39,349 nt of DNA from a virus. A program made the translations under genes and the position numbers. The stretch covers positions 1-39,349 of the IMG/VR virus record IMGVR_UViG_3300017813_000001. One strand, written 5' to 3'. Shown here in pieces: positions 7,928 through 24,496 of the stretch (positions within the stretch are counted from its first letter, which is position 1; the number at the start of each line of letters is the position of its first letter). The notes below the pieces were generated by a model. The model was given only the letters and a program-made list of their open reading frames with translations. It was not told where the DNA came from and did no database searches.

Positions 7928-10851
7928 CGTGCAGCCCTTCCCATCCCGAGCATCTGTTGAATGGCTTTGGCGCCTTTCCCGTTGTCATTGATGTTCGCAA
8001 CGAACTGATCAATCACCCATCTGCCATCTACTTCTCGCGACTGGCTTTGGCCGGCCTTGCTGGCATCCTCGATCACGTTGACGACTGGTGCGGCGCCCAT
8101 CTGCGTACGAGTCGCGTCAGGACCGCTCCCTTTGGCACCCGGCCGGATTGGCGAGACGTTGCCTTTTCGCAACGCCTCAACAGCCGCCACGCCGCCGTAA
8201 CGCTGGATGTCCTTCTGGCTCCAAACCACCTCCCCCTTGTGCACGGTGCCGGCGGCCTCATTGACCCCCCCGGAACCGGTGTAACCACCATTCGAGAAGC
8301 CAATGCCAGCGATGTTTGCCACGTTTGCGGCTGTGGCCACGCCCACGGCAGCTGCTGCGGCGAAGTTGAACGGCGGAGGGAATGCCGAAAGCGCCTTCTG
8401 CACGGCCAGGTAGCCGTCCATAGTGGCCTGGACGATTGCCGCAGCCTTGCCGATCGCGGCGAGCTTCTTGTTTCCCGACTGGCTGAGGCTGGCCATGTTG
8501 CCGAAGAAATCGGAAGCGCCCACCAGCAATGCCTGGTTCTTGGCCTCTTCGATCTTCTGGCGGTTGAGCGTGGCCTGCTCATCGATGTTCGCCACGCGTG
8601 CTGCGTAGGTCTCTTCGTTGATTGCCTTCAGGTCCAAGTAGGCTGCCTGACGTTCAAGTTCGGTAGCGCGCCACGCTTCCAGCTTTTCGGCGGCGGCATC
8701 GAGTCGGTCAATCTCACTCCCGGCGCCGCCGACAGCCGGATCCAGACCTGGTGCATTAGGGGCTTGAGTTACTCCCTCAATGGTCCCCGGCTTCTGCGCC
8801 GCCTTCATGTTTATGTCGCGGATCTTTATCAGCGTTTCAAGGCGCTTGGCAGCCTCTACGTTGCCCTGGCGCTCGTACTCGGCCAACTGCGCCGCATCAT
8901 CCAGGGACGACTTGAGGCTGTTTGCTTCGCGTAGCTGTCCGGTGAGCGTCAGCAGCTGCACTTGATCCTTCTGCGCCTGCTGAATGCCTTTGCTGATCTC
9001 CGCTTCACGCTCAAGCGCGACGTTCTTCTTGAGCTGGGCGGTGATAAGGTCCTGGCTTGCCAGTAGCGACTTTTGATCGGCGGTGAGCGTCTTCTTGCCT
9101 TTGATGTCGGCGAGTTGCTGCTCCCACTTGATCAGCGCTTGGGCTTGGACGCCTACGCGCTCGGTAGCGATGCCCTGGGCGTTCAGCGAAGCGTTCTGCT
9201 GGAGCAGGACGGCCTGGGTCTGGCGAGCGGCGTCCAGCGCCTTCATGCCGGCGTCTTCGGTGTAGGCTTTCTGTTTTTTGGGCGCCGACTCTTTGTAAAT
9301 CGAGTTCTCTCGAATAGCTTTCTGCGATGCAGCAGCCTGCTGTTCGGTGATGATATAGCCCGCGGCTCGAGCTGCGTTGATGCGCTTTTCATCATCCTCG
9401 AGCGCCTTATTCATCTTCTGGCGCTTGGTGAAGTTCTGCTCAATGCTTTTTTGGAAGCCCTCGTAGGCTATCTGTCCGTCTCGTTGTACCTGGGCGGCAT
9501 GGGCAGCGGCCGCCGCTGCATCCTGCTCCGCTTTGGCCTTTTTGGTGTAGCCATCCAGTTCCGCCTGGAGAGTTGCTATTCTCTGGCGGGCATTGCCGTC
9601 CTCGTACCCAGTGTCCAGTGTCGACTTTAGGTAGTTGATCTTCTGCTGAATGGCGGTCAGATCAGGACCACTATTCGACTCCCTGCCGATATCAAGGATT
9701 GCGTCCCAGCCAGACTTCGCTGCGCCGGCCAGGTCGTTCCATGCGCGCTCAAGAGTGCCAAGGTTCTGCTTGATATTCCCCGCTCGTTCGGTGAGCGCCT
9801 TGGCGTAGGCCTCCTCTGCGATCGTAGCAGCGGCCTGTTTGTCGCCCTGCTCCTGAGCAGCTCGTACCTGCTCGTAAACCGAAGCAGTGAGGAAGTTGTA
9901 TTTTTCGTTAAGCTCCGCTACGGCCTTTACCGGGTCGTCCGCAAGTTTGTTGAACTCGGCAATGGTCGTGCCGACAGCTTGGCCTGACGCCTTCTCCCAA
10001 GAGATAGCGGCTATCGCGATCTCTTCGAAGCTGGAACTGGCAATCTTCCCCGAAGCGGCAAGCTGGGCGAGCGCCGAGGCAGCCTGGCCGGTAGTTCCGA
10101 CAGTGTCACCGATGCGCCTGGCCATCTCGGCAAGTGCACCAGTAGTGGTTCCAGAGGCATTCCCCGTGGATACCAGCGACAGGCGAAAGGCATCCTGCTC
10201 CTTGGACCCCTGGTAGTAGGCGAGACCCAGCACGCCGACAGCGGCGGCTGCCACGGTGAACGGATTCACCAGGCCAAGGATGTACCCGCCAAGCGCCTTG
10301 GCCGCCGGCCCAATGCCTCCGAACATGTCCTTGAGCTGGCCTCCCTGTTGAAGGAACACGGTCAGCGGCGCCTGGCCACCCTGGAGCGAAACAGCGATAT
10401 CAGTAAATTGCGCGGGAACGCCACGCAGCGCTGCCGCCGTTGCCTTGGCGGTCATCCCGGTTTTGTTTAGGTCGGTATTGAATCGGCCAAGATCGGCGCG
10501 TGCCGTGCTGATCTTGGCTTGGTAGTCGGAAAACGTCTCCGCATCAAGCAATCCAAGCTTACGGTTCTTTGCCAGCTCTTTCTCTTGCTTGTCCAGCTCG
10601 CCGAGCTTGCGCGTAACCGGATCTATGCTGCCCAGAAGCTCTTCAAGCTCCTCCCGTTGGGTTTTGACCTTTTTCCCGGCGGCCTGGGAGGAGTCGCCAA
10701 CCGCATCAATTCCTTTGGCGGCCTTTTCCATTGCTGGCTTGGTGCGGAGCCCGGCATTCTCCAGCCCCTCAAGGGCCTTGCGTGTGTCGGCCGCCTTCTG
10801 CTCAGCGTCTCGGCTGTCGATCTCAAGGACCAGGCGTGAGGTTTGAGTCAT
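7924..10851 (-). CDS. Tail tape measure protein
   Basis: 975 aa from the ATG at 10851, which has a near-perfect GGAGGCAAC ribosome site; an ATG 20 codons earlier lacks one. Long coiled-coil N-terminus (residues 1-130), hydrophobic 'GLVNPFTVAAAAVGVLGLAYY' near 190, the lambda gpH-type segment with 'GLA/AEMARRIGD' near 245, long Ala/Gln/Lys-rich coiled coils, and the typical C-terminal 'FSNGGYTGSGGVNEAAGTVHKGEVV'. Sets tail length and helps DNA exit. Directly follows the two tail chaperone frames, the usual order. Confidence 0.94.
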   Translation of the reverse strand: MTQTSRLVLEIDSRDAEQKAADTRKALEGLENAGLRTKPAMEKAAKGIDAVGDSSQAAGKKVKTQREELEELLGSIDPVTRKLGELDKQEKELAKNRKLGLLDAETFSDYQAKISTARADLGRFNTDLNKTGMTAKATAAALRGVPAQFTDIAVSLQGGQAPLTVFLQQGGQLKDMFGGIGPAAKALGGYILGLVNPFTVAAAAVGVLGLAYYQGSKEQDAFRLSLVSTGNASGTTTGALAEMARRIGDTVGTTGQAASALAQLAASGKIASSSFEEIAIAAISWEKASGQAVGTTIAEFNKLADDPVKAVAELNEKYNFLTASVYEQVRAAQEQGDKQAAATIAEEAYAKALTERAGNIKQNLGTLERAWNDLAGAAKSGWDAILDIGRESNSGPDLTAIQQKINYLKSTLDTGYEDGNARQRIATLQAELDGYTKKAKAEQDAAAAAAHAAQVQRDGQIAYEGFQKSIEQNFTKRQKMNKALEDDEKRINAARAAGYIITEQQAAASQKAIRENSIYKESAPKKQKAYTEDAGMKALDAARQTQAVLLQQNASLNAQGIATERVGVQAQALIKWEQQLADIKGKKTLTADQKSLLASQDLITAQLKKNVALEREAEISKGIQQAQKDQVQLLTLTGQLREANSLKSSLDDAAQLAEYERQGNVEAAKRLETLIKIRDINMKAAQKPGTIEGVTQAPNAPGLDPAVGGAGSEIDRLDAAAEKLEAWRATELERQAAYLDLKAINEETYAARVANIDEQATLNRQKIEEAKNQALLVGASDFFGNMASLSQSGNKKLAAIGKAAAIVQATMDGYLAVQKALSAFPPPFNFAAAAAVGVATAANVANIAGIGFSNGGYTGSGGVNEAAGTVHKGEVVWSQKDIQRYGGVAAVEALRKGNVSPIRPGAKGSGPDATRTQMGAAPVVNVIEDASKAGQSQSREVDGRWVIDQFVANINDNGKGAKAIQQMLGMGRAAR

Positions 10852-20053: not shown

Positions 20054-21373
20054 TTACATTCTCAGTGATTGGGTTGAGGTCATCTGCGCATTGATCGGGT
20101 ACCGCTTGGCGATGAAGTAGCCTGCGGCGTCGTTCATGTGGTCGTGACCCTTCTTTGGATCTTTATCCGGCTCGCCCTTGTCGGTGTAGGTCTGCCGCTC
20201 CAGGCACTGGGTAAGCTGCGGGCATTGGTCGATGTTGACCGTCATGCGCCGCTCGCCATACGTGTTCAGGAACATGGCGTTTACCGAGTTCACTCGGTCT
20301 TTCACGCTTGGGTTTGTCGAATCGACCACCACGGTGAAGCCGGCTTTCATGAGCAACGACAGATCGGACTCGCTGGCATTCTTGCTGCTGGTGTTCTGGC
20401 CACTGGCATCCGGGTAAACGGCAATGTTGTGCCCTACAAACCGCGCCCTGATCTTCTCGATCATGTCAGGCGTGTCACGCACGGAGTGGAACTCATCCAG
20501 GGCCAGAGGCAGCCCTTCGCGAACCACGTAGACCACTGCGGCCATCTTCATGACGTTGAAGTCCATGCCGATATGCAGCGCTTCGCCTGGCTTGATCCGC
20601 TCGCCGGTACGGCACTCTTCGCGATTGAACGTGTAGTAGACGACGCCAGAGTAGTTTTCGAACCCGGCCTCGTATTCCTGGCGGAATGTGCGAGGGTCCA
20701 TCTTCCGCTTGGCGGCCTCAAGCTCTTCAGGAGGGACGTTGCCACCCTGGAGCGAGGTGTATTGCCAGCTCTTGTGGTCAGGCTCACCGCCGGGCTTTCC
20801 GTCCAAGTAGGTGTCGTAGCAGTGATTGAAGCCTTTCGGCGTTCCGATGCGCAGCGCATGGCCGCCTTTTCGCAGGCCGATACCTGGGATTGTGTACTGG
20901 CAGGTCGAGAGCATCGGGCGCAGGACTTCCTCCCATGCCGCGTACTTGCAGTCAGCCCATTCGTCCACCAGGACAAAGAACAGGCCGGACCCGCGCAGAT
21001 CGTCGTAATTCTCCAGGCCAACGCACCGGATCAAGTGGCCGCTCTTGAGTGTGATCAGCATGTCTGTTTCGTTTGGCTTGCTCTCACGCCACTCTGGCGG
21101 GATGGCCTGCTTCAGCCTGCGCCAGAAGACGCGGCGGGCCTGCTTTTGCGTGGGAGCGGCGTACCAGATCTCATCCTCGACGCTCACGCCCCATTCAGCA
21201 GCCAGTCGCGCAGCTCGGCGCATCTCAGCCTTGCCCAGGAACGTCTTGCCGAACCGGCGGCCACACACCGCATCACGGAAGCGTGCATTTGGCTGGAATC
21301 CCCAAACGTAGATGTTGGCCTGCTTCTTCGTCAGATGGACAGGCGCATCATAGGTACGGGGTAGTCGGGACAT
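20054..21373 (-). CDS. terL: Terminase large subunit
   Basis: 439 aa from ATG 21373, overlapping the small subunit by 26 bp; an earlier in-frame start lies well inside that gene. Walker A-like 'CGRRFGKT' (residues 37-44), Walker B 'LFFVLVDEWAD' (D137, E138), coupling motif region 'RIGTPKGFN', and nuclease Asp residues in 'GMDFNV', 'YPDASG' and 'DHMNDAAGYF'. ATPase that packages DNA and nuclease that cuts concatemers. Confidence 0.95.
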   Translation of the reverse strand: MSRLPRTYDAPVHLTKKQANIYVWGFQPNARFRDAVCGRRFGKTFLGKAEMRRAARLAAEWGVSVEDEIWYAAPTQKQARRVFWRRLKQAIPPEWRESKPNETDMLITLKSGHLIRCVGLENYDDLRGSGLFFVLVDEWADCKYAAWEEVLRPMLSTCQYTIPGIGLRKGGHALRIGTPKGFNHCYDTYLDGKPGGEPDHKSWQYTSLQGGNVPPEELEAAKRKMDPRTFRQEYEAGFENYSGVVYYTFNREECRTGERIKPGEALHIGMDFNVMKMAAVVYVVREGLPLALDEFHSVRDTPDMIEKIRARFVGHNIAVYPDASGQNTSSKNASESDLSLLMKAGFTVVVDSTNPSVKDRVNSVNAMFLNTYGERRMTVNIDQCPQLTQCLERQTYTDKGEPDKDPKKGHDHMNDAAGYFIAKRYPINAQMTSTQSLRM

Positions 21374-21824
21374 TCTCGTCGGGCTCCAGCTTGTACTCAG
21401 CGATGGCGTGCTGCTGGTCAGCCTGGGAGCCAAGTGGCTTTTCTGGTTCAAGGCGGCGATTCACGAAGACATCGCCCACCTCTTTGGCGGCCTGCTCCAG
21501 TAGCTGGGCAGTCAGTGCCATGTTCTTCATGTTCTCGGCTTTCTCAGCCATGCGGCCTAGGGCACGCAGTCGGTACGCACGGTTGGCGATTGGGATGTCG
21601 ACCGTCTCCTCTCTGAAGCGCTTGCGGCACTCCTCGAAAAAGGTCTTCCATTTTTGGCCGAGATCGCGTCCGGAGTACTTCGTTGGGTCGTATCGCTCGC
21701 ACAGCTGGCGGGATACTTCGATGCCGTATTGATCCTTGACGGCCTGGCAAACCTGACTGGGCGTGTCGAAGCAGGCCAGGGCCTGGACAATAAAGGCCTT
21801 CACCTCATCTTTCAGGGCTGCCAT
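21348..21824 (-). CDS. terS: Terminase small subunit (DUF2280)
   Basis: 158 aa from ATG 21824 ('MAALKDEVKAFIVQALACFDTPSQV'), which matches the usual DUF2280 start; a TTG six codons upstream is possible. HTH-like N-terminus, then coiled coil. Recognises the packaging site and feeds the large subunit. Confidence 0.88.
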   Translation of the reverse strand: MAALKDEVKAFIVQALACFDTPSQVCQAVKDQYGIEVSRQLCERYDPTKYSGRDLGQKWKTFFEECRKRFREETVDIPIANRAYRLRALGRMAEKAENMKNMALTAQLLEQAAKEVGDVFVNRRLEPEKPLGSQADQQHAIAEYKLEPDENVPTTPYL

Positions 21825-21855
21825 AGGTTTGGTTTCCGTCAAGGGCTGTCAAGGG

Positions 21856-22488: not shown

Positions 22489-22740
22489 TCAGTCGCCGGC
22501 GTCCAGCAGTACATCTATCAGCTTCTGCTCGCCCAGGCGCATGGCACCCAGGCATTGCAGGTCGTCGCACTTGGGGCCGAGGCCGAACACGGTCACCTCT
22601 CCCTTCGCGCCGATCAGCGTCAAGGCGCCTACAGTGCACTCAGGATGCTCACCGGCATCAAGATCATCAGCAATCTTGCGCAGGGTCTTGGCGGCGTCGC
22701 GCCAGTCTTCCCGCTTGAACTCCAGAACCTTGACGGTCAT
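22489..22740 (-). CDS. Hypothetical protein
   Basis: 83 aa: 'VLEFKREDWRDAAKTLRKIADDLDAGEHPEC' then 'VGALTLIGAKGEVTVFGLG', an alpha-beta small protein. ATGA overlap with the 63-aa gene upstream; its stop region supplies the ribosome site of the metallopeptidase. No family recognised. Third gene after the Acb2-like gene, so it may belong to an accessory anti-defence cluster. Confidence 0.65.
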   Translation of the reverse strand: MTVKVLEFKREDWRDAAKTLRKIADDLDAGEHPECTVGALTLIGAKGEVTVFGLGPKCDDLQCLGAMRLGEQKLIDVLLDAGD

Positions 22741-22928
22741 TCGGTCACCATCTGGCGTGTCTGTGCATGGGCATGGCCGTGGAGCAATCCAACGATCAGG
22801 CCTTGGGGCAGCCCCGCAGTCTTTGCGACGTCCACCGCTTCGGCGATAGCCTTATCGAGAGCGCTTACTGCAGCGTTGACGTCTTGGCTCATTGGCAGCA
22901 CATGGCGCAGACGGGTTACCTTGCCCAT
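22737..22928 (-). CDS. Hypothetical small protein
   Basis: 63 aa from ATG 22928, which overlaps the Acb2-like stop (TGATG). Basic start 'MGKVTRLRHVLPM' then a helix-rich 'VNAAVSALDKAIAEAVDVAKTAGLPQG' and 'LLHGHAHAQTRQ'. Unknown. Translational coupling to the Acb2-like gene suggests a linked use. Confidence 0.62.
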   Translation of the reverse strand: MGKVTRLRHVLPMSQDVNAAVSALDKAIAEAVDVAKTAGLPQGLIVGLLHGHAHAQTRQMVTE

Positions 22929-23158
22929 CAGCTGAATGGATCGGCAGGCTTGGCGATGGAGCGCACGAACCACATGAAGCCCTGTTGCAGGTTGGTCTTG
23001 GCCAGAGCCAGCAGGCGCGGGTCAACACCTTCAATTTGGCCGATCTGCTTGAACAGCTCGCCGGCGTCAGCTTCGAGCGCCTTGATGGAGTTCATCCCGT
23101 CGATCTCGGACTGACTCAGGTCGCGGTAGCCGGTGATTTTCTTGTGCTGGTTATCCAT
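22928..23158 (-). CDS. acb2: Acb2-like anti-CBASS protein (Acb2/Tad1 hairpin family)
   Basis: 76 aa from ATG 23158 with GAGGAATCACCC upstream. The N-terminus 'HKKITGYRDLSQSEIDGMN' followed by 'SIKALE', and the later 'LLALAKTNLQQGFMWFVRSIAKP', match the Acb2 family as I know it: two antiparallel helices and a strongly conserved 'Lq-x-GFM-x-x-xRai-x-P' end. Tyr11 (GYRDL) and Lys26 (SIK) fall exactly at the numbered residues reported to contact 3',3'-cGAMP in Pseudomonas phage Acb2. Known role: a hexameric sponge that sequesters cyclic di- and trinucleotide signals and blocks CBASS immunity. Located between the holin candidates and metallopeptidase/terminase, an accessory slot. Confidence 0.85.
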   Translation of the reverse strand: MDNQHKKITGYRDLSQSEIDGMNSIKALEADAGELFKQIGQIEGVDPRLLALAKTNLQQGFMWFVRSIAKPADPFS

Positions 23159-23177
23159 GGGTGATTCCTCATGATTG

Positions 23178-23803: not shown

Positions 23804-24127
23804 TCAGGCACCTCGCGTCGTCGGGAAAGACCCTATGACTGCTTTGATGGCTGGGATGATGTTCATGGCGGTCAGGCCAAGTACGAAGGCAACACCGCAA
23901 AGAAGGTTGTCGTCCACCACAAGGTCGAGCCTTGTAGCGAGCCAGCCAGTGACGGGCTGTGTCAGGTACACCGAGAAAAAGAAGCCGGTAGCCACTGCTG
24001 CGGCCGCCTGGCCCCTGGTCAAATCCCTCAGGAAGCCGAGAGACAGGATCGAGCCAATGAATGCAGCCATGACCACGCCGTATTTCACCAGCAATACGCT
24101 GGCGGCAGTGCTCGTAGGTTCTGCCAT
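23804..24127 (-). CDS. Putative holin
   Basis: 107 aa; ATG 24127 after CTGGAG at seven bases. Three hydrophobic segments: about 12-32 ('LLVKYGVVMAAFIGSILSLGF'), 42-58 and 74-95, with a charged 'RDLTRGQ' between the first two. First gene of the late block after the tRNAs, the place of lambda S. Likely makes lesions in the inner membrane at lysis. No endolysin follows it in the window. Confidence 0.65.
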   Translation of the reverse strand: MAEPTSTAASVLLVKYGVVMAAFIGSILSLGFLRDLTRGQAAAAVATGFFFSVYLTQPVTGWLATRLDLVVDDNLLCGVAFVLGLTAMNIIPAIKAVIGSFPTTRGA

Positions 24128-24342: not shown

Positions 24343-24417
24343 TGGCTGGTGAGAGTGGGATCGAACCACTGACCGATCGGTTAACAGCCGATTGCACTAC
24401 CGCTGTGCTACTCACCA
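24343..24417 (-). tRNA. tRNA-Asn (GTT)
   Basis: Seven-base acceptor TGGTGAG pairs perfectly with CTCACCA, D-arm GCAC...GTGC, anticodon stem ATCGG/CCGAT around CTGTTAA (anticodon GTT), T-arm AGTGG-TTCGATC-CCACT, discriminator G and encoded CCA. Encoded three bases after tRNA-Thr, so probably one transcript. Confidence 0.93.
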
Positions 24418-24420
24418 ATG

Positions 24421-24496
24421 TGGTGCCGCCACGAGGATTCGAACCCCGGGCCATTCGCTTACAAGGCGACTGCTCTACCACTGGAGCTATGGCGGC
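24421..24496 (-). tRNA. tRNA-Thr (TGT)
   Basis: Acceptor GCCGCCA/TGGCGGC, D-arm GCTC...GAGC, anticodon loop CTTGTAA (anticodon TGT), T-arm CGGGG-TTCGAAT-CCTCG, encoded ACCA. The first base pair of the anticodon stem is a mismatch (G/A). Phage tRNAs usually supply codons the phage uses more than the host. Confidence 0.93.

Follow-up and report, generated by a model that had tools for sequence, protein, structure and literature searches.

A small, strongly conserved minus-strand gene of this Pseudomonas prophage, an IMG/VR virus record whose entire length of 39,349 bases is referred to here as the window, very probably encodes a short form of Acb2, a phage sponge for cyclic oligonucleotides; the ligands proposed for it below are those of the family. 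Acb2 soaks up the alarm molecules that trigger bacterial suicide during infection and leaves them uncleaved. Its sponge activity against CBASS has been published for Pseudomonas phages (PMC12043709). Our results support the view that the 76-aa protein is an unannotated addition to the known Acb2 family and not a new system.

The first-pass annotation of this DNA, which gave no strand, had placed the gene at 22928-23158, and one complete minus-strand ORF of 76 aa fills exactly this interval (Table 1). GAGG precedes its ATG at a spacing of eight bases. A scan for promoters and terminators near acb2 found none, which we regard as neutral. We rejected an antisense gene over acb2, since every opposite-strand frame is interrupted in at least some members of the clade; the most intact one runs without a stop in 90 of 128 sequences.

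Table 1. Features of the acb2 gene and its surroundings in the window
Feature	Positions	Strand	Evidence
Terminase large subunit, downstream	20054..21451	minus	PF17289, phrog_2
Probable terminase small subunit (DUF2280), downstream	21348..21842	minus	PF10045 4.6e-46
63-aa gene, phrog_15190, start overlaps acb2 stop (TGATG)	22737..22928	minus	sequence, phrog match
acb2-like gene, 76 aa (MDNQHKKITGYRDLSQ...KPADPFS)	22928..23158	minus	Pfam PF24729 8e-19; PDB p26/Acb2 5.5e-14
Hairpin helix 2, residues 47-69	22952..23020	minus	AlphaFold2 model, DSSP
Trp63 codon, defines minority Trp-swap subtype	22970..22972	minus	alignment of 86 relatives
Arg48 codon, aligned with PaP2 Acb2 Arg67	23015..23017	minus	84/86 relatives
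Hairpin helix 1, residues 16-40	23039..23113	minus	AlphaFold2 model, DSSP
Lys26 codon	23081..23083	minus	85/86 relatives
Tyr11 codon (= T4 Acb2 Tyr8)	23126..23128	minus	86/86 relatives; Y8A effect in PMC12657218
Shine-Dalgarno-like GAGGA ahead of acb2 ATG	23166..23170	minus	sequence
Holin, upstream, same block	23804..24127	minus	phrog_2359 lysis, 2e-23

The family assignment proposed in the first pass was borne out by a Pfam search, in which the protein gave one match, Acb2_Tad1_hairpin (PF24729), which scored 68 bits where the cut-off is 27 (E 8e-19) and covered profile positions 1-58 of 58. When PDB sequences were searched with phmmer, p26 of phage PaP2 was the best match (8h2j, 8ixz; 5.5e-14), followed by T4 Vs.4 (0.009); according to the phage record, PaP2 gp26 is the gene of the solved p26 Acb2. 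Matches were found by tblastn at 1e-5 in 219 phage records; IMG/VR yielded 327 confirmed relatives, and a genome collection 43 loci, mostly from Pseudomonas. A second viral scan with the alignment as query largely returned the same contigs. The relatives range in length from 73 to 117 aa, with most of the variation at the tip of the hairpin. Proteins of 74-76 aa are the most frequent in the set that we retrieved, whose composition is skewed by the queries used. Across the close clade, 128 different coding sequences gave mean values of 0.030 for pN and 0.54 for pS (pN/pS 0.056), a mark of strong purifying selection. Together with the Pfam E-value and the 219 phage records, this difference between pN and pS argues that the ORF is not a chance one.

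An AlphaFold2 model (84-row alignment; mean pLDDT 88.6) consists of two helices, residues 16-40 and 47-69, with residues 1-10 poorly defined. They form the antiparallel hairpin that the first-pass annotation had expected of the fold. In a Foldseek search against the PDB, ranks 1-6 were PaP2 Acb2 (E 1.9e-4 to 8.3e-4) and ranks 7-9 were T4 Vs.4 (E 0.0055-0.012), all with probability 1.00; the next match beyond rank 9 had an E-value of 2.4. Solved Acb2 has a short N-terminal helix and two long antiparallel helices (PMC12043709), and this short helix is absent from our model, where residues 1-10 have low confidence. Tad1 carries an N-terminal antiparallel beta-sheet ahead of its hairpin (PMC12043709). 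An identity as Tad1 was rejected, because the model is without any strand and has only 15 residues ahead of helix 1.

Tyr11 and Lys26 occur at the residue numbers claimed for them in the first pass. Across the 86 diverse relatives that we aligned, Tyr11, Asn23, Arg66, Ala69 and Pro71 are invariant; Lys26, which we take to be a cyclic-dinucleotide contact of Acb2, is present in 85, and 84 carry Arg48, which aligns with Arg67 of PaP2, presumably a contact for cyclic trinucleotides. Tyr11 corresponds to Tyr8 of T4, on which cyclic dinucleotide binding depends, as seen from the effect of Y8A (PMC12657218). By analogy with the known structures from PaP2 and T4, a hexamer would form from the helix hairpins. 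Its head-to-head pockets, with Tyr11 and Lys26, would hold cyclic dinucleotides (3',3'-cGAMP, for example), and its three-fold ends, with Arg48, cyclic trinucleotides (cA3, for example). CBASS effectors would then stay inactive after infection or prophage induction.

The two motifs that had been put forward as typical of Acb2 are both present, GYRDL at residues 10-14 and LQQGFMW at 57-63, but the terminal MW is typical only of a minority subtype (11/86), the last position being mostly Ala or Ser in the family. A tryptophan stands at position 49 in 72 of the 86 relatives, PaP2 included, and at position 63 in 11, this protein among them; these 11 have Leu, Met, Ala, Cys or Asn at position 49. 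Both positions lie on the second helix, and no sequence (0/86) has Trp at both. T4 Vs.4 aligns with the Trp63 type. On a tree built from 81 columns, with many forks left open, the Trp63 group needs at least three separate changes; columns 49 and 63 were left unmasked, which can only lower the count of switches. This exclusivity is possibly a detail new to the literature. The swap might also mark Acb2 subtypes that differ in messenger preference or oligomer packing, with the protein described here a short Trp63-type sponge of distinct ligand range, although we hold this tentatively and consider it unlikely on present evidence.

Comparison with the two solved proteins shows how far the likeness goes. 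PaP2 Acb2 (gp26; PDB 8H2J/8H2X/8IXZ) shares the N-terminal MDNQHKKI.GYRDLSQ.EID, the helix hairpin and the Tyr11/Lys26 numbering, and its Arg67, Thr74 and Arg85 correspond to Arg48, Thr55 and Arg66. It is, however, 93 aa long, against 76 aa here, where the tip is about 17 residues shorter, and it has Trp68/Ala82 in place of Leu49/Trp63. T4 Vs.4/Acb2 (PDB 7UQ2; T4 residue numbers are the chain number minus one) is alike in fold, in Tyr8 (Tyr11 here), in Thr68 (Thr55) and in the M-W position of the second helix, but identity is only about 24%. T4 Phe82 stacks on the ligand (PMC12657218), whereas the equivalent residue is Ala69 here and Ala in all 86 compared sequences, PaP2 included.

The shorter tip and the Leu49/Trp63 pair in place of the usual Trp49/Ala63 suggest that the ligand range may differ from that of PaP2. 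The protein could thus be a genuine Acb2 homologue with pockets adapted to messengers other than the 3',3'-cGAMP of CBASS, such as type III CRISPR trinucleotides or the Panoptes decoy 2',3'-c-di-AMP. Ligand range is reported to vary among homologues (PMC12043709), and T4 Acb2 binds 2',3'-c-di-AMP (PMC12657218). Tyr11, Lys26 and Arg48 are nevertheless all retained, and T4 Vs.4, with its Trp at the same alignment place, was solved with cGAMP; we therefore regard such retuning as improbable.

The gene lies in the late block, as the first pass had stated, downstream of the holin gene and upstream of both terminase subunits. The order on the minus strand is NinG, a phrog_3373 gene of unknown function, two tRNA genes, holin, two small genes, acb2, two small genes, a phage metallopeptidase, DUF2280 and the large terminase; the DUF2280 protein is the probable small subunit because of its place before the large one. 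This placement recurs in related Pseudomonas prophages: acb2 stays between NinG/holin and metallopeptidase/TerS/TerL, and the small genes around it differ from one prophage to another. The TGATG junction with the phrog_15190 gene is kept in many of these prophages, and the two genes are likely co-translated. The tRNA genes just upstream of the holin (24343-24496, minus strand) are tRNA-Asn (GTT) and tRNA-Thr (TGT); their placement recalls Stx phages, in which tRNA genes lie between Q and the toxin/lysis genes.

Phage relatives have similar surroundings. Zuri gp95 (73% identical) is encoded just upstream of the Zuri terminase genes, and in the P. aeruginosa phages 5400 and U2 the homologue follows the endolysin gene beside the terminase genes. 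Both gp95 and the 95% identical proteins of 5400, D14B and vB_Pae_U2 are annotated as hypothetical proteins only. In vB_Pae_U2, an opposite-strand gene called Rz-like spanin overlies the acb2 match. Record PP003914 (L126, 2980-3675) has an opposite-strand 'Rz-like spanin' over the acb2 homologue, probably a mis-call.

A position between holin and terminase, and the spanin call in one record, might point to an accessory protein of lysis or packaging whose likeness to Acb2 ends with the helix-hairpin fold. We find this highly improbable: family membership is evident at the sequence level, the ligand residues are invariant, and inspection by eye shows neither a transmembrane nor a signal segment. 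In PaP2, moreover, acb2 adjoins DNA primase/polymerase genes and not a late block, so the family as a whole is not tied to lysis genes. Acb2 reportedly works in lysogenic induction and not in maintenance (PMC12043709), which suits a temperate phage that carries the gene in its late block. Late timing may explain why acb2 sits where it does.

Some copies elsewhere are broken. Internal stops interrupt acb2 of P. lini (L106) and P. entomophila (L109), both around 10001-10240, and the copy of P. fluorescens FW300-N2E3 (L110, around 10001-10240) is without the first 12 residues. The family occurs in at least 20 of 250 genomes of the genus Pseudomonas (the scan missed one match in genome G001, so counts are lower bounds), and three of the 20 over-cut-off matches contain a TAG stop. 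The broken copies could reflect Panoptes selection or ordinary prophage decay. Three acb2 copies (L082, L087, L097) occur in one P. rustica genome, where two of the three lie on short contigs of 4.2 kb. That the gene studied here is itself a decaying relic, as these stops might suggest, is scarcely credible, since it is intact, its protein is identical to several prophage copies (L002, L013, L019, L021) and its clade is under purifying selection.

A SMODS cyclase was found in 3/20 acb2-positive and 5/60 acb2-negative Pseudomonas genomes, which gives no clear co-occurrence with CBASS. With 4/23 among the genomes that supplied the loci, we judged co-occurrence too weak to serve as support. Sponge activity can also be costly to the phage: T4 Acb2 sets Panoptes toxicity free, and acb2 is lost in T4 escapers (PMC12657218).

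Taken as an Acb2 sponge, the short form described here is a standing gene of the late blocks of temperate Pseudomonas phages, in which the checked neighbours are annotated as hypothetical proteins. The tryptophan swap offers a simple mutational test for the determinants of ligand range. Such a gene can decide whether a phage grows on CBASS hosts and, according to the T4 report, whether Panoptes is triggered.
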